This document shows, in pieces, positions 40,324 to 52,640 of a stretch of DNA of 64,000 nt. The position numbers and the translations under genes were made by a program. Numbering within the stretch: position 1 is the stretch's first letter; each line of letters starts with the position of its first letter. The notes under the pieces were generated by a model. It had not been told where the DNA came from, ran no database searches, and worked only from the letters and a program-made list of their open reading frames with translations. The stretch comes from Streptomyces sp. NBC_01707 (lineage in GTDB: Bacteria > Actinomycetota > Actinomycetes > Streptomycetales > Streptomycetaceae). The stretch spans positions 4,402,001 through 4,466,000 of the forward strand of contig NZ_CP109190.1 in assembly GCF_041438805.1 (NCBI RefSeq). Reading direction: 5' to 3'.

Positions 40324-41079
40324 CTACCCCCTCGCGCCCACCGCCCGTCGCGCCTCGGCCACCACGTCGGGATCGGTCACGAAGTGGGTGTCCTGCTCGG
40401 CCGACGCACCCCCGGCGCCGAGCGGCACCCAACCGCCGCCACGCCGGGGCAGCGCCCGGGCCTTGGCGGATAGGTGGACGGCGGCGGCTCCGGCGGAGGT
40501 CAGGGCCGGGATGTCGGCGGGGCGCACCCCGCCGCCTGCCATCACCTGCACGCCGGGCGCGGCGGCGACCATCGCGGTGATCGCCGCCACCCCCTCGGCC
40601 GCGGTGGGGGCACCGCCCGAGGTGAGGACCCGGGTGAGGCCGAGCGAGGGCAGCAGTGCCGCGGCGGCCACCGGGTCGGCGGACTGGTCGATGGCGCGGT
40701 GCAGGGTGATGTCCACCGGGCGGCCCGAGGCGCGGGCCGCTTCGGCGAGCCTGGTGATCGCCACGGTGTCCAGGGCGCCGTCCGCGGTCAGCGCGCCGAT
40801 CACCACACCGGAGGCGCCCGAGGCGATGACGGACCGCACCTCGGCGGCCATCAGCGTGATCTCCTCCGCGTCATGGACGAAATCGCCGGGCCGGCACCTG
40901 ACCAGCACCTGCACCGGCAGCCCCTCCCCCGCGACCGCCTCCACGAGGGCCGCCGACGGGGTCAGGCCGCCCAGCTCCAGGGCGATGCAGAGCTCGACCC
41001 GGTCGGCGCCGTTCTCCCGGGCGGCGCGGGCACCGGCCGGTGAGGTGACGGCGATCTCCAGAGCGGGGTGTGCGGTCAC
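40324..41079 (-). CDS. cutC: CutC-family TIM-barrel protein
   Basis: 251 residues. Conserved CutC blocks EIAVTSPAGARAARENGADRVELC, RCRPGDFVHDAEE, TLHRAIDQ and VMAGGGVRP. The family was named for copper homeostasis in E. coli, but the biochemical role is unsettled. GTG 41079 overlaps the stop of the M81 gene by 4 nt, so it is translated by coupling. The link to peptide or sugar breakdown genes here suggests a catabolic rather than copper role (inferred). Confidence 0.9.
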   Translation of the reverse strand: MTAHPALEIAVTSPAGARAARENGADRVELCIALELGGLTPSAALVEAVAGEGLPVQVLVRCRPGDFVHDAEEITLMAAEVRSVIASGASGVVIGALTADGALDTVAITRLAEAARASGRPVDITLHRAIDQSADPVAAAALLPSLGLTRVLTSGGAPTAAEGVAAITAMVAAAPGVQVMAGGGVRPADIPALTSAGAAAVHLSAKARALPRRGGGWVPLGAGGASAEQDTHFVTDPDVVAEARRAVGARG

Positions 41080-42599
41080 TCGTCGTCCCCGGTCAGCGGC
41101 TGGTCGGAGGCGGGGATGATACGGGCCGACAGGTCCGGGTCGGCCATCTCGCGGTCGAAGGGGAACATCGGGCGGCGGATGCGGTGGTGGCCCAGACGTA
41201 CCAGGTCCTGGTCCACCCCGCCCGGGGTGAGCGCCATCTTCCAGCCGACCGACATGTCGAAGAGTTCGGGCTCCAGGTAACCGATCTTCACGATCACGAT
41301 GTCGGCACCGCGCGGGTCGAGGTCCAGGTCGGTGAAATCGTGCTCGTGGTGGTACGGCTTGCGGAGTCCGGTGAGAATCGCGTACACGCTGCCGACCCGG
41401 ATGACGACCTCGGTCCTGGCGTCACGGTCGCCGTGCCGAATGGCATGCACCACACCGGTCAGGGTGACCGGACCCGCGTGCCGGTCGTCCACCTCGGCGC
41501 CGGCGGTGACCGTGACGGTGGCGCCGACACCGGCGGCGACGGCGGTCTCGACGGCGGCAGGTCCGGGCACCGAGGCGTAGATGACGGTCGGTCCGTCGTC
41601 CTTCTGGAACTCCGGGCGGGTCAGCAACCGGGTCAGGCCCCAGGTCACGTCACCGGCGCCGCCGGCGGTCGGGTTGTCCCCGGTGTCGCTGATGAAGTAC
41701 GGGCGCCGGTCGGAGACCAGGGCCTCGTCCAGGATGCCGTCGAAGGTGCCGGTCGGGGCGACGAAGTCGAAGTCGTCGCGGACCTTCCAGAAACCCTGGG
41801 CCAGGCGCTCGGAGCCGGCCGACACGGCGGCCCGGTCGGTGCCGGTGACCACCACCACGGCGCGGTTGCGCGGTTCGTCGGCCCAGGCGTAGCCGACCCA
41901 TATCGCGGCGTCGATCACACCGTCCATGGCCTCGACCTCGTCCACGGCCGCGTACACGCTCCTGGCCGGCTCGATCCGGGTGGAGGTCTGCTCGCCGGCC
42001 AGCAGCACCGGCACCGGTACCCACGCCTTGACCGGACGGGGCGCACCGGAGACAAGCAGGTCCACCAGGTTGCGGACGGCCCGCTCCTTGGTCTCCATGT
42101 GGTCCTCGTGCGGGGCCATCCGGTAGCAGGTGATCAGGTCGCTGCCGTGGGCGAGTTCTCGGGAGACATTGCCGTGCAGGTCCATCGAGGTGGAGATGAT
42201 CACGTCGGGGCCGACGGTGGCGCGGATGCGCTCCAGCAGCACCGCCTCGGCGTCGTCGACGCCCTCCACGGTCATGGCGCCGTGGATGTCGTACCAGAGG
42301 CCGTCCGGCTCGGGCAGCGCGGCGAGCCGTTCGATCAGTTCGTCGGTCAACTCGGCCCAGGCGGCGGCGGTGACGGTGCCGCCCGGCAGCGACTTGCCGA
42401 CCAGGGCGCCGTGCCAGTCGGCCGCCTCGCGCAGTTCCTCACCGGGCGCGAGGAAGGGGTAACGGTCCAGCACCTCGGCGCCGCGCGAGGGGTGGAAGGC
42501 GGGGGCCTGGGTGCGGGCGGGAGAGAAGGTGGACGACTCGATGCCGAGTCCGGCGATGGCTATGACCGGGCGGGCTGCGGCGGTGCGGGATTGCGGCAT
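41076..42599 (-). CDS. M81-family (MlrC-like) metallopeptidase
   Basis: 507 residues. MlrC is the zinc-dependent hydrolase that completes microcystin degradation; homologues are thought to cleave small peptides or amides. Visible blocks are the N-terminal GLGIESSTFSP, DGLWYDIHGAMT, the metal motif SMDLHGNVS and YRMAPHEDHMET. ACGAGGAG lies 5-6 nt before the ATG. Second gene of ROK repressor-M81-cutC, transcribed away from the ABC transporter it may serve. Confidence 0.93.
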   Translation of the reverse strand: MPQSRTAAARPVIAIAGLGIESSTFSPARTQAPAFHPSRGAEVLDRYPFLAPGEELREAADWHGALVGKSLPGGTVTAAAWAELTDELIERLAALPEPDGLWYDIHGAMTVEGVDDAEAVLLERIRATVGPDVIISTSMDLHGNVSRELAHGSDLITCYRMAPHEDHMETKERAVRNLVDLLVSGAPRPVKAWVPVPVLLAGEQTSTRIEPARSVYAAVDEVEAMDGVIDAAIWVGYAWADEPRNRAVVVVTGTDRAAVSAGSERLAQGFWKVRDDFDFVAPTGTFDGILDEALVSDRRPYFISDTGDNPTAGGAGDVTWGLTRLLTRPEFQKDDGPTVIYASVPGPAAVETAVAAGVGATVTVTAGAEVDDRHAGPVTLTGVVHAIRHGDRDARTEVVIRVGSVYAILTGLRKPYHHEHDFTDLDLDPRGADIVIVKIGYLEPELFDMSVGWKMALTPGGVDQDLVRLGHHRIRRPMFPFDREMADPDLSARIIPASDQPLTGDDE

Positions 42600-42622
42600 G
42601 GCTCCTCGTAGGGGGTGGAGTG

Positions 42623-43843
42623 TCAGGCGTGGCGGGGCGCCGGGGCACGGAACGGGTCGGTGCCGCCGACCTCGCGCAGGGCCACGCTCAGGGCTCGCTG
42701 CAGGGCGAACTGCCCGGCACCGACCAGTCCGGCGTCGGCGCCCAGGCTGGCCCGCTCGATGGTGAGGTGTTCGGTGACCAGCGGATGGCAGCTCTCGTAG
42801 AGCTGGCTGCGCACGGCGGCTACGAACGGCTCCAGGGTGGAGAGGATGCCGCCGAGATAGACGGCGTCCGGGTTGAAGAAGTTGACGTTGGTCGCGAGCA
42901 CTTGGCCCAGGTAGTCGCCGGCCCTGCGGACCGCGCGAGTCGCTTCCGGGTCCGCGTCGACGGCCAACCGGGCCACGTCCTCGGTGCTGCTGACGTCGGC
43001 CCCGCGCTCGCGCAGGATGCGGACCAGGGCGGCACCGGAGGCCACGGTCTCCAGACAGCCGGTGTTCCCGCAGGAACAGGGGATGTCGGCGCCGCCGTCG
43101 ATCCGGATATGGGTGATGTCACCGGCCGCGCCGGTGGCGCCCCGGTAGAGACGTCCGTCGGCGATGACCCCGGCGCCGATCGCGGAGCCGATCTTCACCA
43201 TGATCGCCTGCCGGTGTTCGGCGGGCCGTACGGTGTGCTCGCCGACCGCCATGCAGTTGGCGTCGTTGTCCACGGCGGCCGGGACCCCGAACCGTTCCTC
43301 CAGCCAGGCGGTGACCGGGAAACGGTTCCAACCCGGCATCCGGGACGGCAGGACCACCGAGCCCGACGCGATGTCCACCGGTCCGGGCAGCGAGAGCCCG
43401 ACCCCGCGCAGGTAGCCGCGACCGCGCTGCTCGGCCAACGCCTCCAGGGTCTCGGCGAGCCGGGGCAGGGCCGCCTCCGGGCCGTCGGCGATCACGAAGG
43501 GGACGGTCGAGACATCGGTGAGACCGCCGCCGGGCAGCACCACACCGATCCGGGCATGGCGGCCGCCGAGATCGGCGGCGACGGCGAACTCGTCGTTGCC
43601 TCCCAGTCTCAGCGCCTTGCGGGGGCGCCCCCCGGTGGAGGACTGGGTGCCCTCCTCGGCGATCAGCCCGCGCTCCACCAGATGGGCCACGGTGAGAGAG
43701 ATGGTGGAGGCCGCGGCCCCCAGCAGCCCGGCGAGTTCGGCGCGTGACGAGGCCTGGCCCGATGCCACGAGTTCCAGGACCCGAGCGGCGAGGGCCGGAG
43801 TGCTTTTCATGGCCTTGCGGTCCCCTGCACTTATTCCAGTCAT
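42623..43843 (-). CDS. ROK-family transcriptional repressor
   Basis: 406 residues. An N-terminal winged helix-turn-helix (about 15-75, with SRAELAGLLGAAASTISLTVA) is joined to a ROK sugar-binding domain with DLGGRHARIG and the zinc motif CSCGNTGCLE, preceded by GDITHI. Such proteins sense a sugar and repress adjacent transport genes. The ATG at 43843 and an in-frame ATG at 43810 are both possible. The upstream region carries palindromes and tandem repeats shared with the divergent transporter promoter. Confidence 0.92.
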   Translation of the reverse strand: MTGISAGDRKAMKSTPALAARVLELVASGQASSRAELAGLLGAAASTISLTVAHLVERGLIAEEGTQSSTGGRPRKALRLGGNDEFAVAADLGGRHARIGVVLPGGGLTDVSTVPFVIADGPEAALPRLAETLEALAEQRGRGYLRGVGLSLPGPVDIASGSVVLPSRMPGWNRFPVTAWLEERFGVPAAVDNDANCMAVGEHTVRPAEHRQAIMVKIGSAIGAGVIADGRLYRGATGAAGDITHIRIDGGADIPCSCGNTGCLETVASGAALVRILRERGADVSSTEDVARLAVDADPEATRAVRRAGDYLGQVLATNVNFFNPDAVYLGGILSTLEPFVAAVRSQLYESCHPLVTEHLTIERASLGADAGLVGAGQFALQRALSVALREVGGTDPFRAPAPRHA

Positions 43844-43847
43844 GTAC

Positions 43848-43858
43848 GAAGTAACTTC
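43848..43858. repeat. GAAGTAACTTC palindrome near the ROK repressor start
   Basis: Perfect 5-bp arms around one central base, next to the repressor start. AGTTACTT, part of the same motif read on either strand, recurs at 44015-44022. These are candidate repressor half-sites. Confidence 0.4.
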
Positions 43859-43950
43859 CGCAATGGTGTGTGTGGCGAGAGACGATACGCCCGCACTTGG
43901 CGCGGGGGAACAGCCTCGCGAAGGAAGTGGGCCGATCCCGAAACCCCATC

Positions 43951-43970
43951 AATCCACCCAAATCCACCCA
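43951..43970. repeat. Exact tandem 10-bp repeats in the ROK/ABC intergenic region
   Basis: AATCCACCCA occurs twice in a row. On each side lies one copy of AAGTGGG(C/T)CGATC (near 43924 and 43974). The arrangement is typical of operator clusters in divergent regulatory regions. Confidence 0.5.
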
Positions 43971-44129
43971 ATGAAGTGGGTCGATCGGAGTGAGGGGACT
44001 TTTTTCGGTGACGCAGTTACTTACTTTTTACTAATTCTTGTTTGTTTCTTCGGAGTGTCCGGCGTTAGCTGTCGTGAACGCAGTGCCGGTCCTGGGACAC
44101 ACAGGGGCCCATTCACTCTGAGGAGAGTC

Positions 44130-45947
44130 ATGTTCCTTGCTCACACGGCGAACAGCCGCCGCTGGGCCCTCGTCGCGGGCGCCGCTGTCACCGCGGGTGC
44201 TCTGCTGACCGGCTGTTCCGGCGGCGGCACGTCGTCGTCCGCGTCCGGCTCTTCGGACACCATCAACTACGCGCTGCCGGCCAACTTCACGCCGAACTGG
44301 ATTCTCCCGATCGGCACCGCCGCGCACCTGAACACCAACAACTCCTCCATATCCCAGTCCCTCTGGGAGCCGCTGATCGCGTACGACGGCTCCACCGGCA
44401 AGGTCGGCTGGAACAAGGACAACTCGCTGGCCACCGCCGCCGACTTCGCCAAGGACAGCAAGAGCGTCACGATCACGCTCGGCGACCGGAAGTGGAGCGA
44501 CGGCAAGCAGATCACCTCCCGCGACGTGGAGTTCTGGTTCAACCTGGTCAAGGCCAACAAGGCCGACTGGGCCAGCTACAGCCCGGGCAAGGCGCCGGAC
44601 AACTGGACCTCGCTGAAGATCGTCGACGACACGCACTTCACCCTCACCTTCGACCGTGCGTACAACCAGCAGTGGATGCTCGCCAACGAGTTGAGCATGA
44701 TCCGTCCGATGCCGCAGCACGTCTGGGACAAGACCGGCGACTCGGACGCCGTGTCGGACCTCGACCGCACCCCTGCGGGCGCCAAGAAGGTCTGGTCGTA
44801 CCTGAACGACGCGGCCAAGAAGATCTCCGGCTACGCCACCGACCCGCTCTGGAAGACGGTCAGCGGCCCGTACACCATCAAGTCGTTCTCCACGGCCGGC
44901 AAGGTCAACCTGACCGCCAACGCCGCGTACGACGGCGGTGGCAAGGCCAACATCAAGAACGTGAACCTGCTGCCGTTCACCACCACGGACGCCGAGGAGA
45001 ACGCCCTCCGGGCCGGCACGGTCGACTACGGCTACATCAACGCCACCAACCTCAGCCAGGAGTCGTCCTTCACCTCCAAGGGCTACGCGGTGAAGCCGTG
45101 GTCGGGCTGGGCCATCACCTACATGCCCTACAACTTCAACAACCCGGCCATGGGCGCGGTCTTCAAGCAGCTCTACGCCCGCCAGGCGATCCAGATGTCG
45201 GTGGATCAGACCACCCTCTCCAAGGTCGTCTTCAACGGCACCGCGGTCCCCACCTACGGCCCGATCCCGCAGGGCCAGAGCTCGTCCTTCGTCTCGTCGG
45301 ACCAGAAGAACAACCCGTACCCGTTCTCCACCGCCAAGGCGAAGGAGCTGCTGACCGGCCACGGCTGGACCGAGCAGGGCGGCACCATGGTGTGCACCGA
45401 CCCGGGCACCGGAGACAGCCAGTGCGGCGCCGGCGTGGACAAGGGCACCAAGTTCCGGATGCAGGTGCTCTCGCAGTCCGGTTCCACCGTGACCGACAAC
45501 ATGATGAGCGCCCTGCAGTCGTCGTTCGCCAAGACCGGCATCGACTTCTCCATCAAGACCGCCCCGGTCAACTCGGTCCTCGCGCAGTCCGGCCAGTGCA
45601 AGGCCGACGACGCCGGCTGCAAGTGGCAGCTGTCGTTCTTCGGCACCGCGGGCAGCTGGTACTTCCCGGCCTACCCGAGCGGTGACTCCCTCTTCGCCAC
45701 CGGCGGCGGCTCCAACTTCGGCAGCTACAGCAACCCCGACGTGGACAAGCTGATCACCCAGACCACCACGTCAGCCTCCGACGAGGCGGTGCAGCAGTAC
45801 AGCGCCGCCCTGGCCAAGGACCTTCCGGTCATCTGGCTGCCGGAGCCGGACTACCAGGTCTCCGTGGTCAAGAAGGGCCTGGACGGCTTCGCCCAGGACT
45901 CGCTCGCCAACTTCCACCCCGCCATGTGGAAGTGGACCACCAAGTGA
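44130..45947 (+). CDS. ABC transporter substrate-binding lipoprotein (oligopeptide/dipeptide type)
   Basis: 605 residues. Signal peptide with lipobox LLTGC (Cys29), a short Ser/Gly linker, then the SBP_bac_5 fold. ATG 44130 has GAGGAGAG a few nt upstream. Members bind peptides but also nickel, oligosaccharides and muropeptides. Context (ROK regulator, ROK kinase, M81 hydrolase) favours an amino-sugar- or glycopeptide-like ligand, but this is inferred. First gene of a five-gene plus-strand operon; a hairpin follows its stop. Confidence 0.94.
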   Translation: MFLAHTANSRRWALVAGAAVTAGALLTGCSGGGTSSSASGSSDTINYALPANFTPNWILPIGTAAHLNTNNSSISQSLWEPLIAYDGSTGKVGWNKDNSLATAADFAKDSKSVTITLGDRKWSDGKQITSRDVEFWFNLVKANKADWASYSPGKAPDNWTSLKIVDDTHFTLTFDRAYNQQWMLANELSMIRPMPQHVWDKTGDSDAVSDLDRTPAGAKKVWSYLNDAAKKISGYATDPLWKTVSGPYTIKSFSTAGKVNLTANAAYDGGGKANIKNVNLLPFTTTDAEENALRAGTVDYGYINATNLSQESSFTSKGYAVKPWSGWAITYMPYNFNNPAMGAVFKQLYARQAIQMSVDQTTLSKVVFNGTAVPTYGPIPQGQSSSFVSSDQKNNPYPFSTAKAKELLTGHGWTEQGGTMVCTDPGTGDSQCGAGVDKGTKFRMQVLSQSGSTVTDNMMSALQSSFAKTGIDFSIKTAPVNSVLAQSGQCKADDAGCKWQLSFFGTAGSWYFPAYPSGDSLFATGGGSNFGSYSNPDVDKLITQTTTSASDEAVQQYSAALAKDLPVIWLPEPDYQVSVVKKGLDGFAQDSLANFHPAMWKWTTK

Positions 45948-45949
45948 GC

Positions 45950-45990
45950 CCGGTCGGTGACCACGCGTACCACTGAGCCGAAGCGACCGG
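45950..45990 (+). other. Hairpin between substrate-binding protein and permease genes
   Basis: CCGGTCG (45950-45956) pairs with CGACCGG (45984-45990). Such hairpins after binding-protein genes often stabilise the upstream mRNA or attenuate the downstream part, giving an excess of binding protein; this role is inferred. Confidence 0.45.
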
Positions 45991-45997
45991 AAAACAC

Positions 45998-46957
45998 ATG
46001 AGCACTTCCTCGTACCTGACCAGACGAGTTCTCCAAGCCGTCGTGGTGATCGTCATCGTGACGATCGTGGTCTTCGGTCTGCTGCACGCCCTGCCCGGGG
46101 GTCCCGCTCGCGGGATCCTCGGCCCGCAGGCCACGGCGCAGCAGATCGCGTCCTTCAACCACGAGCAGGGCCTCGACAAGCCCCTCCCCGTGCAGTACTT
46201 CTACTACCTGAATCAGCTGCTGCACGGCGACCTCGGAACCTCGTACACACTCAATGAGCCGGTCTCCCAGCTCATTACCGAGCGGCTGGCCAAGACCCTG
46301 CTCCTCACCGCCCTGTCGGCGGTCGTCGGCCTCGTGCTGGCGATCCCGTTGGGCATGTGGCAGGCGGTCCGGCGCAACAAGCCGGTCGACTACGTCATCA
46401 CCACGCTGAGCTTCATCGCCTACTCCACGCCCGTCTACTTCCTCGGGCTGATCCTGGTGCTGGTGTTCAGTCAGGCGCTGCCGTGGTTCCCGTCCCAGGC
46501 TCCGCAGGGGGACACGCTCGCCCAGGTGCTCGCCGACCCGCAGGCGCTGGTGCTGCCGGTCGTCGCCGGTGCCGCCTCGATGATCGCGGTGTTCAGCCGC
46601 TACATGCGGGCGGCCACCCTGGAGAACCTCTCCGAGGACTACGTCAGGACGGCGCGGGCCGGCGGTTCCCGCTCCCGCGCCATCCTGTGGCGTCATGTGT
46701 TCCGCAACTCGCTGACGCCGGTGGTCGCCATGCTCGGCTACTACGTGCCGGTGCTGTTCGGCGGCGCGCTGGTGGTCGAGCAGCTCTTCAACTACCCCGG
46801 TATGGGCCTGCTCTTCTGGACGGCCGCACAGTCGTCCGACTACCCGGTGCTGCTGGGCTGTGTGCTGGTCATCGCGACCGCCACGGTGGTCGGCACACTG
46901 CTCGCCGACATCGTCCAGCGGATCATCGACCCCCGAGTGAAGGCAGGCCGGGCATGA
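45998..46957 (+). CDS. ABC transporter permease (DppB-type)
   Basis: 319 residues, six predicted membrane helices starting at about 10-30. The ~70-residue loop after the first helix and the cytoplasmic coupling block (ENLSEDYVRTARAGG) are typical of DppB/OppB. GGAAAA precedes the ATG. Its stop overlaps the next start (ATGA). Confidence 0.93.
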   Translation: MSTSSYLTRRVLQAVVVIVIVTIVVFGLLHALPGGPARGILGPQATAQQIASFNHEQGLDKPLPVQYFYYLNQLLHGDLGTSYTLNEPVSQLITERLAKTLLLTALSAVVGLVLAIPLGMWQAVRRNKPVDYVITTLSFIAYSTPVYFLGLILVLVFSQALPWFPSQAPQGDTLAQVLADPQALVLPVVAGAASMIAVFSRYMRAATLENLSEDYVRTARAGGSRSRAILWRHVFRNSLTPVVAMLGYYVPVLFGGALVVEQLFNYPGMGLLFWTAAQSSDYPVLLGCVLVIATATVVGTLLADIVQRIIDPRVKAGRA

Positions 46958-47853
46958 GCGCCGTCATCCAGCCGGGCCAGGCGCCCACCACGGCCACCGC
47001 CGCCGACAGCCCGTCCGGCTACCGGCTCGCCGTCCGGCGCTTCCTGCGCAACCGGCTCGCCGTGGTCGGGCTCGGCGTCGTGGTCTTCTTCTTCCTGCTC
47101 TGCTTCGTCGGTCCGCTGGTGTACTCCACCGACCAGACCCACACGATGCTCCAGCAGGTCAATCTCGCACCCAGCGGCTCGCACTGGCTCGGCACCGACG
47201 CGGTCGGCCACGACGAACTGGGCCGGCTGATGTACGGCGGCAAGGTGTCGCTCATCGTCGGTCTGGCCGCAGGCATCCTGGCCACGGTGATCGGCACCCT
47301 GTGGGGCGCCGTCGCCGGCTACGCGGGCGGCTGGATCGACGCGGTCATGATGCGGATCGTGGACGCGGGGATCGCCATCCCGGCGCTCTTCATCCTGCTG
47401 GTGGTCTCGGCCATCACCACCCCGGGCCTGACGGGGCTGATCGTCATCCTGGGCTTCGTCTCCTGGCTGGTGCCGTCCCGGCTGATCCGGGCCGAGACGC
47501 TGAGCCTGAAGAACCGCGACTACGTCCTGACCCTGCGGGCCATCGGCGGAACGCACGCCCGGGCGATCACCCGGCACATCCTGCCGAACTCGGTCTCGAC
47601 CATCATCGTCGCGGCCACGTTCCAGATCGCCGACGCCATCCTGCTGGTCGCCTACGTCTCCTACCTGGGCCTGGGCGTCCAGCCGCCGGCCACCGACTGG
47701 GGCGGCATGCTCTCGGCCGGTCTCACCGCCGCGTACTCCGGCTACTGGTGGCTCATCCTGCCGCCGGGCCTGGCCATCATCCTGGTGGTGTGGGCGTTCA
47801 ACGCGATCGGGGACGGGCTCCGCGACGCATTCGACGTGAGGGGACGCGGATGA
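46954..47853 (+). CDS. ABC transporter permease (DppC-type)
   Basis: 299 residues. First helix about 34-56, a short extracellular segment with HWLGTDAVGHDELGRLMYGG, which is the DppC/OppC signature, then five more helices and the coupling block LSLKNRDYVLTLRAIGG. Overlaps both neighbours by ATGA, so the three membrane/ATPase genes are translationally coupled. Confidence 0.94.
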   Translation: MSAVIQPGQAPTTATAADSPSGYRLAVRRFLRNRLAVVGLGVVVFFFLLCFVGPLVYSTDQTHTMLQQVNLAPSGSHWLGTDAVGHDELGRLMYGGKVSLIVGLAAGILATVIGTLWGAVAGYAGGWIDAVMMRIVDAGIAIPALFILLVVSAITTPGLTGLIVILGFVSWLVPSRLIRAETLSLKNRDYVLTLRAIGGTHARAITRHILPNSVSTIIVAATFQIADAILLVAYVSYLGLGVQPPATDWGGMLSAGLTAAYSGYWWLILPPGLAIILVVWAFNAIGDGLRDAFDVRGRG

Positions 47854-49559
47854 CCGCCACCCAGGGCTCCGCCGCCCCGCCGGCCGGGCCGATTCTCGAA
47901 CTCGACGGCCTCGGCGTCGTCTTCACCACCGAGACCGGCGAAGTTCCGGCCGTCCGGGGCGTCTCCCTGCACGTCAGCCCCGGTGAGACGCTCGCCCTGG
48001 TCGGCGAGTCGGGCTCCGGAAAGTCCACCATCGCGCTGGCCGCGATGGGACTGCTGGACGGCAACGCCCGCGCCACCGGCTTCGCCACCATCGCCGGCAC
48101 CCCGGTGGTCGGTGCCCGTGAGGCCGATCTGGCGGCGCTGCGCGGCCGGACCGTCTCCATGGTGTTCCAGGAGCCGGCCACCGCACTGGACCCGCTGACC
48201 CGGATCGGCAAGCAGATCGCCGAGGTGATCCGCAACCACCGCCAGGTGTCCGCCAAGGACGCCGCCGCCGAGGCCGTCGAACTCCTGCGCAAGGTCGGCA
48301 TCCCCGAGCCGGAGAGGCGGGCCACCGCCTACCCCTTCCAGCTCTCCGGCGGACAGCGTCAGCGGGTGGTCATCGCCATGGCCATCGCCAACGAGCCCGC
48401 CCTGCTGATCGCCGACGAGCCGACCACCGCGCTGGACGTCACGGTGCAGGCCGAGATCCTGGACCTGCTGCGCCGGCTCGCCGTCGAGACCGGCACCGGT
48501 GTCCTGCTGGTCACGCACAACATGGGCGTCGTCGCGGACTTCGCCGACCGGGTCGCCGTGATGTACCAGGGTGAGATCGTGGAGACCGGACCCGTCGAGG
48601 ACGTGCTGCTCCGACCGTCCCACGACTACACCAAGCGGCTGCTGGCCGCGGTACCCCGGCTGTCGGTCGCGGAGGCGGGCCGGCCGGCCGCGCCGGCCGC
48701 CGCCCCCCGCCCGGACACCGATCCTGTGGTCGAACTCCGCGACATATCCGTGGTGTTCGGTCGCGGCAAGGGCGCCGTGCGGGCTCTGGACGGGGTCTCC
48801 CTCGCCGTCCACGCCGGGGAGACCCTGGGTCTGGTGGGCGAGTCGGGTTCCGGCAAGTCCACCGCGTCCCGGGTCGCGCTCGGTCTGATCCCGCCGAGTT
48901 CCGGCACCGTCTCACTGTTCGGCACCGACCTGGGCCGCACCCGGTCCCGGGCCCGCCGGGCGCTGCGGGCCGGTATCGGCGTGGTCCTCCAGGACCCCGT
49001 GGCCTCGCTGGACGCCCGGATGACGGTCGGCGAGTGCATCGCCGAGCCGCTCAGGGTGCACCGCCGTGAGCTCTCCGCCAAGGACCGCCGGAGCAAGGTG
49101 GCCGACGTCCTCGACCGGGTCCGGCTGCCGCGTGAACTCGCCCGGCGCGCCCCCCGGGAGCTGTCCGGCGGTCAGCGCCAGCGGGTCAGCCTGGCCCGCG
49201 CCCTGGTCCTGGAGCCCCGGCTGCTGGTCGCCGACGAGCCCACCAGCGCGCTCGACGTGAGCGTGCAGGAGGCGGTACTCGAAGTGATCTCCGAGCTCCA
49301 GCACGAGCTGGGCTTCGCCTGTCTTTTCGTCTCCCACGACCTGGCCGTCGTACAGCACTTCGCGCAGCGCGTCGTGGTGATGCGGGCCGGCCGGATCGAG
49401 GAGCAGGGCCCCACCGGCGCGACCCTGCTGCACCCGGAGACCGACTACACCCGCCGGCTGCTGGCCGCCGTGCCGGTGCCCGACCCGGTGATCCAGCGCG
49501 GCCGCAGAGCCGAACGTCTGGCCACCCTGGCAGCCGGCCGGACGGAGGCCCAGGTATGA
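47850..49559 (+). CDS. ABC transporter ATPase, two nucleotide-binding domains fused (DppD-DppF)
   Basis: 569 residues. Two complete ATPase domains in one chain: Walker [10 protein letters not shown] at 52-60 and again in the second half, LSGGQRQRV signatures in both, and Walker [13 protein letters not shown] and [12 protein letters not shown]. Each half keeps the C-terminal peptide-transporter tail ([12 protein letters not shown] and [11 protein letters not shown]). It corresponds to a fusion of DppD and DppF. GAGGGG lies before ATG 47850. It ends in an ATGA overlap with the kinase gene. Confidence 0.95.
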
Positions 49560-50491
49560 GCTTCCGTGACCGTACGCTCTTCGCCGGAGTGGACATCGGC
49601 GGCACCACGACCCAGGTGGTGGTCTGCGCAGAGGACCTCACCGTGCTGGACCGCTCGGAGGTGGCGACCCCGGCGGCCGACGGCGGCCGGGCCATGATCG
49701 GCGCGGCCCTGGGCGCGCTGGCCCCGCTGCTGGAGCGCACCCCCGGCCGGCTCGCCGGCTGCGGGGTCGGCGCGGCCGGCGTGGTGGACGCCGCCACCGG
49801 CCGCATCCTGGTGGCCAGCGACTCCTTCTCCGGCTGGGCCGGTTTCGCGGTGACGGACGCCGTCGAGGAGGCGCTGGGGGTCCCGGCGTTCCTGGACAAC
49901 GACGTCAACGCCTTCCTCTACGGGGAGGTGTCCGGCGGCGCCGTGCGCGGCGAGTCGGACGTCCTCGGGATGACGCTGGGCACCGGGGTCGGCGGCGCGT
50001 TGTGGACCGGCGGCGCGCTGTTCGCCGGGCCGCACGGCGCGGCCGGCGAGATCGGGCACATCCCCGGCTTCGGTGATCTGCTCTGCTCGTGCGGCGGCCG
50101 GGGCCATCTGGAGACCCTGGCCTCCGGACGTTCCATCGGCGCCCGTTACGCGGAGCGCACCGGCCGCCGGCTGACCGCCCGCGAGGTCGCACAGGCCGCC
50201 GGCCGCGGTGACCAGGACGCCCTCGCGGTGTACGACGCCGCCGCTGCCGGGATCGCTCAGGCGATCGTGATGACGGCGGGCGTCGTCGACATCACCACGG
50301 TGGTGGTCGGTGGCGGGGTCAGCCGGGCCTGGTCCCTGCTGGAACCCCTCATCCTGTCGTCGCTGGCCGCCGACCCACCGGTCAGCGGCCACCCGGTCCG
50401 GCTGGTCAAGGCGGCCCTCGCCTCCGACGCGGTGCCGGTCGGCGCCGCGGCGCGGGCCCGACGGGAGCTGATGGTGAAGGCCGGGGTCTGA
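49556..50491 (+). CDS. ROK-family sugar kinase
   Basis: 311 residues. ATP phosphate motif GVDIGGTT (11-18), the catalytic Asp region FLDNDVNAF, GEIGHIPG and the zinc motif CSCGGRGHLE; there is no DNA-binding domain, so it is a kinase rather than a regulator. Glucose, N-acetylglucosamine or N-acetylmannosamine are typical substrates. Last gene of the transporter operon, overlapping the ATPase by 4 nt and followed by a terminator. It suggests the imported compound carries a sugar that is phosphorylated in the cell. Confidence 0.92.
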   Translation: MSFRDRTLFAGVDIGGTTTQVVVCAEDLTVLDRSEVATPAADGGRAMIGAALGALAPLLERTPGRLAGCGVGAAGVVDAATGRILVASDSFSGWAGFAVTDAVEEALGVPAFLDNDVNAFLYGEVSGGAVRGESDVLGMTLGTGVGGALWTGGALFAGPHGAAGEIGHIPGFGDLLCSCGGRGHLETLASGRSIGARYAERTGRRLTAREVAQAAGRGDQDALAVYDAAAAGIAQAIVMTAGVVDITTVVVGGGVSRAWSLLEPLILSSLAADPPVSGHPVRLVKAALASDAVPVGAAARARRELMVKAGV

Positions 50492-50519
50492 GGCGGCCCG
50501 GTCTCGGGCGACACCCGTA

Positions 50520-50561
50520 CGCTCCGGTGCCACGTGCCCTGTGCGGCGCAGCACCGGAGCG
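50520..50561 (+). terminator. Hairpin terminator of the transporter operon
   Basis: An 11-bp perfect stem (50520-50530 with 50551-50561) around a 20-nt loop, 29 bp beyond the kinase stop codon. Confidence 0.75.
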
Positions 50562-50664: not shown

Positions 50665-51660
50665 GTGATCACTTCGCCGCCACGGAGCACCCAGCGACGC
50701 GCCGAGCACGCTTCGACGCCGTACGTCGACCTGTCGCGTGCCGAATGGAGTGCCCTGCGCGACAAGACCCCGCTGCCGCTGACCGCCGCCGAGGTCGAGC
50801 AGCTGCGCGGGCTCGGGGACGTCATCGACCTCGACGAGGTACGGGACGTCTACCTGCCGCTCTCCCGGCTCCTGAACCTCTACGTCCAGGCCACCTCCGG
50901 CCTGCGCGGCGCCCTCAACACCTTCCTCGGGGACGCGGGCAACGGCCACGGTGCGCAGCGCGGCACTCCTTTCGTCATAGGGGTCGCGGGCAGTGTCGCC
51001 GTCGGCAAGTCCACCAGTGCCCGTATCCTCCAGGCGCTGCTGGCCCGCTGGCCCGAGCACCCCCGGGTCGAGCTGGTGACCACGGACGGTTTCCTGCTGC
51101 CGATGAAGGAGCTCCAGGCGCGCGGGCTGATGTCGCGCAAGGGGTTCCCGGAGTCGTACGACCGACGCGCCCTGACCCGTTTCGTCGCCGACATCAAGGC
51201 CGGCAAGGACGAGGTGACGGCCCCCGTCTACTCGCACCTGATCTACGACATCGTGCCGGGCGAGCGGCTCACGGTGCGCCGCCCCGACATCCTGATCGTC
51301 GAGGGCCTCAACGTGCTGCAGCCCGCGCTGCCCGGCAAGGACGGCCGCACCAGGGTCGGGCTCGCCGACTACTTCGACTTCAGTGTGTACGTGGACGCGC
51401 GGGCCGAGGACATCGAGACCTGGTATCTCAACCGCTTCCGCAAGCTGCGCGAGACCGCGTTCCAGAACCCGTTCTCGTACTTCCGCAAGTACACACAGGT
51501 CTCCGAGGAGGAGGCCATGGAGTACGCCCGCACCATGTGGCGGACCATCAACAAGCCCAACCTGCTGGAAAATGTCGCCCCCACCCGGGGCCGTGCCACC
51601 CTGGTGCTGCGGAAGGGCCCGGATCACAAGGTCCAACGTCTGTCGCTGCGCAAGCTCTGA
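50665..51660 (+). CDS. coaA: Type I pantothenate kinase
   Basis: 331 residues. Phosphorylates pantothenate, the first step to CoA. Walker [19 protein letters not shown], the [10 protein letters not shown] block and [16 protein letters not shown] are all family-specific. The start is GTG 50665; AACAAT lies 6 nt upstream with no ribosome-binding site, so the mRNA is probably leaderless. AcpS, which uses CoA, is encoded about 13 kb away in the window. Confidence 0.96.
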
Positions 51661-51686
51661 GAACCCGACCTCCCGGGAGTACCCGC

Positions 51687-52640
51687 GTGCTGCACCTGCG
51701 CCTGATCGTCCCCGCCGACCGTACGGACGAGGTGCTCCATCTCGTCGAGCACACCGTCGGCGCCACGCATCTGGTGGTACTGCCGGCGGCCGCCCGTGAC
51801 CCGGCGGGCGACGTGGTGCTGTTCGACGTGGCGCGCGAGGCGGGCGACGAGCTGATCAGCGCCCTGCGCGCACTCGGTGTCGACGAGTCCGGCTCGATCA
51901 CCGTCGAGCACTCGGACCTGACGCTCTCCTCCCTCGCCGACCGGGCCAAGGAGGAGGCTCCGGGCGAAGGTGTGGACGCCGTGCTCTGGGAGAAGCTGAC
52001 GGACGCGACCCACGAGGAGTCGACGTTCAGCGTCACCTATGCGGCGTTCCTGGCGGTCGCGACGATGCTCGCCGCCTGCGGTGTGATGCTCGACAACGCG
52101 ATCCTGATCGTGGGCGCGATGGCGGTGGGCCCGGAGTTCGGACCGCTGGCCGGTATCTCCACGGCGCTGGTGCAGCGCGCCCCGCGTCTGGCGTGGCGTT
52201 CGCTGTGGACGCTGATCGCCGGGTTCGCCGTCGCGATAGTGGTGACGGTCGGATTCGCCTGGATGATGAACGCCTTCGGGCTGTTCACCGAGGCGATGAT
52301 CGAGGCGGCCAGGCCCAACACGGCGTTCATCTGGAAGCCGGACTGGATGTCGTTCGTGGTGGCCTTCCTGGCGGGCATCGCCGGGACGCTCTCCCTCACC
52401 TCGACCAAGTCCGGGGCACTGATCGGCGTCGCGATCTCGGTGACGACCGTGCCGGCCGCGGCCAATGCGGCGGTGGCGTTCAGCTACCGGGACTACGGGC
52501 AGATGTGGGGCTCGGTGGGCCAGCTGATGGCGAACCTCGCCGGGATCGTGCTCGCGGGGACGCTGACACTGCTGCTGCAGAAGGCGCTGTGGGCGGTCCG
52601 GCGCCGCCGGACCGCCGCCGCGGCGACAAGCCGCGCCTGA
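51687..52640 (+). CDS. DUF389 membrane protein
   Basis: 317 residues. N-terminal ~110-residue cytoplasmic ferredoxin-like domain, then five or six membrane helices of the DUF389 (UPF0126/TIGR00341-like) type with NAILIVGAMAVGPEFGPLAG as the most conserved block, ending in a short Arg-rich tail. Function unknown. GTG 51687 is chosen with GGGAG 7 nt upstream. It follows coaA by 26 bp. Confidence 0.88.
   Translation: MLHLRLIVPADRTDEVLHLVEHTVGATHLVVLPAAARDPAGDVVLFDVAREAGDELISALRALGVDESGSITVEHSDLTLSSLADRAKEEAPGEGVDAVLWEKLTDATHEESTFSVTYAAFLAVATMLAACGVMLDNAILIVGAMAVGPEFGPLAGISTALVQRAPRLAWRSLWTLIAGFAVAIVVTVGFAWMMNAFGLFTEAMIEAARPNTAFIWKPDWMSFVVAFLAGIAGTLSLTSTKSGALIGVAISVTTVPAAANAAVAFSYRDYGQMWGSVGQLMANLAGIVLAGTLTLLLQKALWAVRRRRTAAAATSRA

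Follow-up and report, generated by a model that had tools for sequence, protein, structure and literature searches.

A candidate route for uptake and cleavage of glyco-amino acids in Streptomyces sp. NBC_01707, with M81 and CutC family proteins as putative enzymes

In the 9.9 Mb genome of Streptomyces sp. NBC_01707, two divergent operons bring together a ROK-family repressor, a metallohydrolase of family M81, a CutC family protein, a peptide-type ATP-binding cassette (ABC) importer and a ROK sugar kinase. What does this block of eight genes take up, and what do two proteins whose families are named for peptidases and for copper homeostasis do in it? The stretch analysed, hereafter the window, comprises 64,000 nucleotides (contig NZ_CP109190.1, positions 4,402,001 to 4,466,000). 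Judged from the context of the block and its relatives, there is about an even chance (roughly 0.5) that it serves the uptake and cleavage of glyco-amino acids of the N-acetylglucosamine-asparagine (GlcNAc-Asn) type, the stubs of N-glycans. A preliminary description had predicted all eight genes and two tightly coupled divergent operons, both of which were confirmed. Each gene was found at its predicted position, the principal Pfam hit of every protein scores above the curated threshold, 4-base overlaps occur at the M81/CutC, permease B/permease C, permease C/ATPase and ATPase/kinase junctions, and 23 bases separate the repressor and M81 genes. Of the span then given, 40324 to 50561, the start holds and the end does not, the last gene stopping at 50491.

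The first evidence for a functional unit is co-conservation. The M81 scan was counted on the best 80 of 149 relatives, which are the 80 named genome loci, and the nearest M81 genes found there are those of Streptomyces. The core partners sought were the repressor, the solute-binding protein (SBP), two permeases, the ATPase and the kinase, each at more than 55% identity. All six accompany M81 in 71 of the 80 loci, so that the expected recurrence of the gene set in other genomes was found, far beyond chance. Among the nine incomplete loci, six lie at a contig edge (L010, L053, L056, L059, L069, L084) and three are genuine exceptions (L072, L075, L079).

The surroundings of the block are not conserved in the same way. 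Nine neighbouring genes of the window were tested, including glmS and alr (the latter label being that of the preliminary description), and any of them was present in only one of the 80 loci (L014); the flank beyond the kinase mostly reached only about 2 kb, which left glmM hardly testable. Within Streptomyces, a single group of loci has its own common flank, and apart from this synteny no further flank partner was found to be conserved. The differing flanks indicate that the block is a portable unit and that glmS and alr seem to stand beside it by chance, and the link to cell-wall metabolism drawn earlier from these genes was abandoned. Recycling of muropeptides or other peptidoglycan fragments is accordingly very unlikely. 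It could call on glmS, glmM and alr close by in the window genome, and on a MurQ gene near two CutC genes elsewhere; against it stand the single locus with such neighbours, the failure of blast to find a MurQ-like gene alongside the core (no search was made for NagZ), and the fucosidases and GH92 enzymes described below, which are not known to have a role in peptidoglycan. Of the two kinds of substrate first proposed, glycopeptide fragments fit the relatives, which add alpha-L-fucosidases, GH20, GH84 or GH92, and muropeptides do not.

The second line of evidence is the exchange of uptake modules. A core of the ROK repressor, M81, usually the ROK kinase and often CutC recurs with swapped importers: the Opp type of the window, CUT1 importers mostly accompanied by glycoside hydrolases of family GH29, amino-acid-type importers, and a major facilitator superfamily (MFS) permease with GH20. 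The M81 products of S. boluensis (L072) and S. viridiviolaceus (L079) are 79% and 78% identical, respectively, to that of the window; in both, the M81 gene ends a CUT1-importer operon, with one GH29 alpha-L-fucosidase in the former and two in the latter, which is also flanked by GH84, GH92 and GH20 genes. Pfam confirms GH29, GH84, GH92 and GH20 in the M81 loci. Two other actinobacterial families carry M81 in 6 of 22 genomes (E <= 1e-60) and 19 of 199 genomes. The first family has one Opp-type locus (L275) and five of CUT1 type (L208, L273, L274, L276, L277), with GH29 in three of the five and a ROK kinase in all five. Among the 19 loci of the second, nine are of Opp type (L207, L278-L280, L285, L287-L289, L291), eight of them with CutC inside the block; three (L282-L284) join a CUT1 importer, two GH29 genes, the kinase, M81 and CutC; four are of amino-acid type (L281, L290, L292, L293); and the rest are L286, CUT1-like without GH29, L294 with five M81 genes, and L295, for which no partners were found. 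Taken together, GH29 and the ROK kinase each occur in 8 of the 10 fucosidase-type CUT1 loci, L286 not being among the ten. The fucosidases of L079, L208 and L282 have no evident signal sequence by eye and therefore probably act in the cytoplasm.

In the phylogenetic tree of M81 (60 rows, comprising 56 of these contexts and four other M81 proteins), the 56 context rows are split from the four outgroup proteins with 100/100 support. The context label changes at least three times to CUT1, twice to the amino-acid type and once to MFS with GH20, the deepest joins being unsure due to long branches. Row L274 is labelled as CUT1 with GH29 and has no GH29, so the association with fucosidases amounts to three places in the tree: L072/L079, L208/L273/L282-L284 and L277.

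Related sets were also seen on annotated plasmids of other phyla, where M81 matches 492 records. Two Pantoea loci (L163, L237) hold the whole seven-gene core with M81 37-38% identical, and in Palleronia (L166) the SBP and permeases lie opposite the repressor, M81, two ATPases and CutC. Loktanella (L165) and Peteryoungia (L167) combine a MurR/RpiR regulator, an SDR, a GH20 hexosaminidase, M81, an MFS permease and CutC; S. meliloti (L159) has a set of this type with no CutC in the stretch shown. Paracoccus seriniphilus (L236) has M81, GH20, NagA-like, ROK and SIS genes opposite CutC and a CUT1 importer. GH92 lies one gene away from M81 in Spirosoma (L157, 61% identity), a SusC/SusD pair precedes it in Parabacteroides (L158), and M81 of Cetobacterium (L175, 30%) is accompanied by a peptide-type importer but by neither a ROK gene nor an amino-sugar gene.

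The amino-acid-type operons connect the core with amino-sugar catabolism. In L290, L292 and L293 one operon contains M81, NagB, a natural CutC-ROK kinase fusion, two permeases, a family-3 (amino-acid-type) SBP and an ATPase, with a ROK repressor on the opposite side; the genes of L290 were confirmed by Pfam and NCBIfam, NagB above its cut-off, and those of L292 and L293 by homology. L281 joins M81 (72%), CutC and an amino-acid-type importer. In two of seven Curtobacterium loci (L077, L078), a NagA-like gene adjoins the kinase convergently on the opposite strand, and the NagA of L077 exceeds the NagA cut-off. These genes also bear on an alternative in which M81 is an amino-sugar deacetylase or N-deacylase: chitobiose-like or fucosylated GlcNAc would be freed by GH29 or GH20 and deacetylated, and the glucosamine phosphorylated and passed to NagB. 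It is consistent with the stretches seen of L290, L292, L293 and Loktanella L165, which contain NagB but no NagA, with GH20 beside M81, and with chitin-binding proteins among the SBP fold matches. This alternative is nevertheless unlikely, as NagA would be superfluous in L077 and L236, where it is present, and as a glyco-amino acid accords better both with the several recruitments of peptide- and amino-acid-type transporters and with the pairing of CutC with glycosylasparaginase described below.

Carriage of peptide, amino-acid and sugar type, frequent fucosylation, an amidase, a ROK kinase and NagB would together fit GlcNAc-Asn, either bare or core-fucosylated. Among described systems the closest is alf-2 of Lactobacillus casei, which consists of the AlfH permease, the GH29 fucosidase AlfC, the glycosylasparaginase AsnA2 and the ROK kinase SugK, and whose substrate is Fuc-alpha-1,6-GlcNAc-Asn, with Fuc for fucose (PMC6960285). 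The likeness of the window block to alf-2, itself drawn from context, lies in an amide-cleaving enzyme, a ROK sugar kinase, a substrate-specific repressor and, in the relatives only, GH29. The two differ in that alf-2 has an MFS permease, AsnA2, a GntR regulator and neither CutC nor M81 among its listed genes (PMC6960285), while the window has ABC import, M81 in place of AsnA2, a ROK repressor and CutC. No match to PF01112, the glycosylasparaginase family and defining enzyme of alf-2, was found genome-wide in the window genome.

Under the GlcNAc-Asn reading, a substrate-induced route can be proposed, whose substrate in the window version is probably unfucosylated GlcNAc-Asn or short glycopeptides. 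The SBP and the Opp-type ABC transporter would import the substrate, and M81, as a zinc amidase with a metal site predicted by alignment, would split the amide to aspartate and 1-amino-GlcNAc, thus serving as a second, non-homologous family that replaces glycosylasparaginase. CutC, to judge from its context and the fusion, may act on the freed amino sugar at the phosphorylation step or immediately ahead of it, perhaps by glycosylamine hydrolysis or anomer interconversion; in the alf-2 pathway 1-amino-GlcNAc is said to decay non-enzymatically (PMC6960285). The ROK kinase would then form the 6-phosphate, which would enter the NagA/NagB route, and the ROK repressor may sense the sugar or its phosphate and act at the intergenic palindromes. 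In the relatives, alpha-fucosidases with a CUT1 importer would handle core-fucosylated stubs, or an amino-acid-type importer would be used. Context thus supports the broader scheme first proposed, namely import of an amide-linked amino sugar, probable amide cleavage by M81, phosphorylation by the ROK kinase and induction through the ROK repressor.

The M81 protein of the window contains the DUF1485 and MlrC_C domains that define its family. The zinc ligands of microcystinase C (MlrC, PDB 7ylq) are given as E39, D167, H169 and H191, with H196 printed in one passage (PMC9982164). They align to E21, D140, H142 and H164 of the window protein, and the four residues are the same in all 28 M81 proteins aligned, indicating that M81 is equipped for metal-dependent amide hydrolysis. 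The likeness to MlrC extends over residues 12-483 at 124.6 bits. The relationship is distant; against the MlrC equivalog (microcystinase) model the window protein scores 105 bits, far below the cut-off of 999, and its context is that of amino-sugar metabolism. Several variants of M81 loci were also noted. In Catelliglobosispora koreensis (L075:10001-12228), M81 and CutC form an overlapping pair, with neither a transporter nor a kinase gene in the stretch covered. L294 (G718 C155) has five tandem M81 paralogues and L226 three M81 genes, where substrate diversification is possible, and the Bacteroidota proteins (L157:14908-16485, L158:10630-12186) have signal-peptide-like starts by eye and may act in the periplasm.

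The family assignment of the window CutC is clear: PF03932 scores 164.2 bits against a cut-off of 23.3, and in sequence, model and conserved residues the protein matches the CutC family, including the Shigella and human structures (1twd, 3iwp). It differs from the family annotation, a role in copper, in that CutC of the window type stands beside or is fused to amino-sugar enzymes. CutC lies next to M81 in 45 of the 80 loci and is hence optional. Its place in the route, as suggested earlier, gains support from the CutC-ROK kinase fusion of L290, L292 and L293, which has 568-589 residues and of which 5 of the 12 genomes in that genus encode a full-length copy; on plasmids, the sole record covering at least 80% of the fusion was from Aeromonas, as two separate aligned pieces. 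A non-random sample of 15 CutC regions from 64 matching plasmid records was also inspected (annotated records, Enterobacteriaceae excluded: L165-L174, L235, L236, L320, L323 and L324, of which L320 came via its glycosylasparaginase). A gene for ROK, NagA, NagB, BadF, SIS, M81, GH20 or glycosylasparaginase was near CutC in 13 of the 15, a raw count without a background rate in which Listeria L323 is included via a sugar isomerase and a ROK gene; M81 itself was near in five.

The pairing with glycosylasparaginase is seen in Hymenobacter, where on all three CutC plasmids CutC overlaps an annotated N4-(beta-N-acetylglucosaminyl)-L-asparaginase gene, with GH92 near and no M81; a fourth Hymenobacter record gave a weaker match to glycosylasparaginase. 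In genomes G359 and G913, from another genus, the partner of CutC is again a protein of this type and not M81; the gene order is a cellobiose-type phosphotransferase system, a PF01112 protein, an M20 peptidase and CutC, the PF01112 protein being named by homology only, at 37% to the Hymenobacter one and far below the sole matching NCBIfam model. After other CutC proteins, the fold neighbours of CutC are TIM-barrel enzymes, among them MJ1099, deoxyribose-phosphate aldolase and ribulose-phosphate epimerase, and the modelled fold at most hints at sugar or aldehyde chemistry. Except for CutC itself, no copper gene was found beside CutC in the window block, and none is annotated in the 15 plasmid regions. 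As a separate case, L210:9275-10075 (G367) holds a CutC gene without M81 beside the downstream genes, a serA-like one among them, that also follow the fucosidase-type cluster of L282-L284, which could be a remnant or an independent use.

These contexts lead to a more specific proposal, which is possible although the odds are put against it: that this M81 clade is a second, unrelated glycosylasparaginase family, and that CutC is an amino-sugar enzyme working after the amide or glycoside is cleaved and ahead of the kinase (for example a glycosylamine hydrolase or an N-acetylhexosamine mutarotase), with the fusion channelling its product. Among the open-access matches listed, as represented by titles, starts of abstracts and term counts and with other print outside the scope, none connects either CutC or M81 with GlcNAc-Asn or with a ROK kinase. 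If true, the proposal would give a function to two widespread families with possibly misleading names (M81 'metallopeptidase' and CutC 'copper homeostasis') and would reveal a portable amino-sugar core whose importers and glycosidases are exchanged across phyla. It would also show how soil actinomycetes may exploit the remains of N-glycoproteins. CutC is distributed from bacteria to humans and was named for copper, and its role, the human one included, would become approachable by a simple bacterial assay.

A number of observations weigh against the GlcNAc-Asn reading. Within the genus Streptomyces, M81 is matched at E <= 0.001 in 45 of 150 genomes: 27 at >=77% identity (the window genome included, some in pieces), 13 at about 50%, and 5 distant or short. 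Twelve loci of the thirteen in the 50% subclade were fetched; 10 of them have the SBP, permease(s) and a ROK repressor, and in two (L119, L123) M81 occurs without the transporter. Neither the kinase nor CutC was found among the called genes of any of the 12, which argues against the kinase being indispensable, and in L122 and L125 a BadF-type kinase-like gene lies a few genes off by eye. L209, a second Opp-repressor-kinase cluster in the genome of L208, has M81 not beside it but elsewhere. Conservation of M81 and the kinase together with the transporter, on which the earlier proposal had been staked, is therefore found for M81 in most loci; it fails for the kinase in this subclade and for M81 at L209. 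Further points are the M81-CutC genes without a nearby ROK gene of the block kind (L281, L206, L075), an Asparaginase_II protein beside M81 in L072 that would be superfluous if M81 frees aspartate, and the two fucosidase-type CUT1 loci without GH29. In the window genome no GH85 endoglycosidase was found, and its alpha-L-fucosidases lie far away from the block, which has none. As to CutC, it is absent despite room in 33 of the 80 loci (two have no room), L173 and L174 hold it without any amino-sugar gene in the stretch, and it adjoins a PF01112-type gene in only 2 of 10 CutC-bearing genomes of the G359 family, one being cut at a contig end. Kozakia (L324) has CutC among NagA, NagB, two ROK genes and GH20 without M81 or glycosylasparaginase, which makes a CutC step on the amino sugar more likely than one on the amide. 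The AlphaFold model of the SBP (mean predicted local distance difference test score 81.9) is nearest to peptide binders by Foldseek, naming no ligand.

A rival account is a conventional system for oligopeptide import and peptidase cleavage, in which CutC is a passenger concerned with copper homeostasis. Such a system would agree with the Opp-type transporter (an SBP_bac_5 protein, Opp-type permeases and a double ATPase with oligo_HPY), with the annotation of M81 as a peptidase and with the subclade that has neither kinase nor CutC. A second, diverged CutC of the window genome (L222:8248-8955, C1:4744849 region) is likewise in keeping with it, being divergent to a CopA-like copper ATPase by eye; this paralogue may differ in function. 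The recurrence of the ROK kinase, ROK repressor, NagB, GH29 and the CutC-ROK kinase fusion with M81 makes a plain oligopeptide system quite improbable. The substrate may instead be another amide-linked amino-sugar conjugate, such as a secreted glycopeptide, an amino-sugar natural product or an opine- or Amadori-like compound, with the chemistry of the route unchanged. Opp-type SBPs bind varied ligands, AapF and AgaA are among the SBP matches, and in L121 (L121:13008-19493) M81 adjoins a set resembling fructosamine (frl) genes by eye, with an SIS deglycase, a PfkB kinase, a CUT1 importer and a LacI regulator. As N-glycans are indicated by alpha-fucosidases in three parts of the M81 tree and by GH92, GH84 and GH20 in other M81 loci, such a conjugate is rather unlikely, if less so than the oligopeptide system. 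The fold of the SBP gave no decision on the substrate, as Foldseek ranks peptide, nickel, ethylenediaminetetraacetate and chitin binders alike.

For M81, CutC, the SBP and both ROK proteins, no NCBIfam equivalog was found above its cut-off, so specific names are unjustified by sequence. The nearest named structures of the kinase are glucokinase and the kinases of GlcNAc and N-acetylmannosamine. The two ROK proteins resemble NagC and NagK in their domain family, NagC and the GlcNAc and N-acetylmannosamine kinases being among the nearest curated models, and differ in falling below all those cut-offs; the kinase scores 83.6 bits against the NagK-type GlcNAc kinase model, whose curated cut-off is 380. 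Assignment of the kinase specificity through family models was therefore dropped.

Two patterns in the intergenic region between the operons provide a lead for operator sites (Table 1). GAAGTWACTTC is present in 34 of 75 intergenic regions of divergent operons and in none of the shuffled sequences, and GTAAM-N6-GTWWC in 67 of 75 against a shuffled mean of 0.12; both patterns were picked post hoc from the alignment, and the 75 regions are related by descent.

Table 1. Genes of the block and candidate operator sites, in positions of the window
Feature	Position	Strand	Evidence or remark
CutC family protein (PF03932)	40324..41079	-	Pfam; conserved residues; 4-base overlap with M81 stop
M81 family metallohydrolase (DUF1485 + MlrC_C)	41076..42599	-	Pfam; zinc ligands by alignment
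ROK-family repressor, NagC-like	42623..43843	-	ROK domain by Pfam
Candidate operator, perfect palindrome GAAGTAACTTC	43848..43858		Few bases upstream of repressor start codon
Candidate operator, imperfect inverted repeat GTTAC-N6-TTTAC	44016..44031		Upstream of transporter operon
Solute-binding lipoprotein, SBP_bac_5 (Opp/Dpp type)	44130..45947	+	Pfam, structure model
Opp/Dpp-type permease B	45998..46957	+	Pfam
Opp/Dpp-type permease C	46954..47853	+	Pfam
Fused double ABC ATPase (OppD-OppF type)	47850..49559	+	Pfam
ROK sugar kinase (PF00480 alone)	49556..50491	+	Pfam, nearest named structures

A scan for terminators 3' of the kinase found none. Downstream of the block, at 50665-52640 of the window, a CoaA-like pantothenate kinase and a DUF389-like membrane protein were recognised by eye, both of an ordinary kind.

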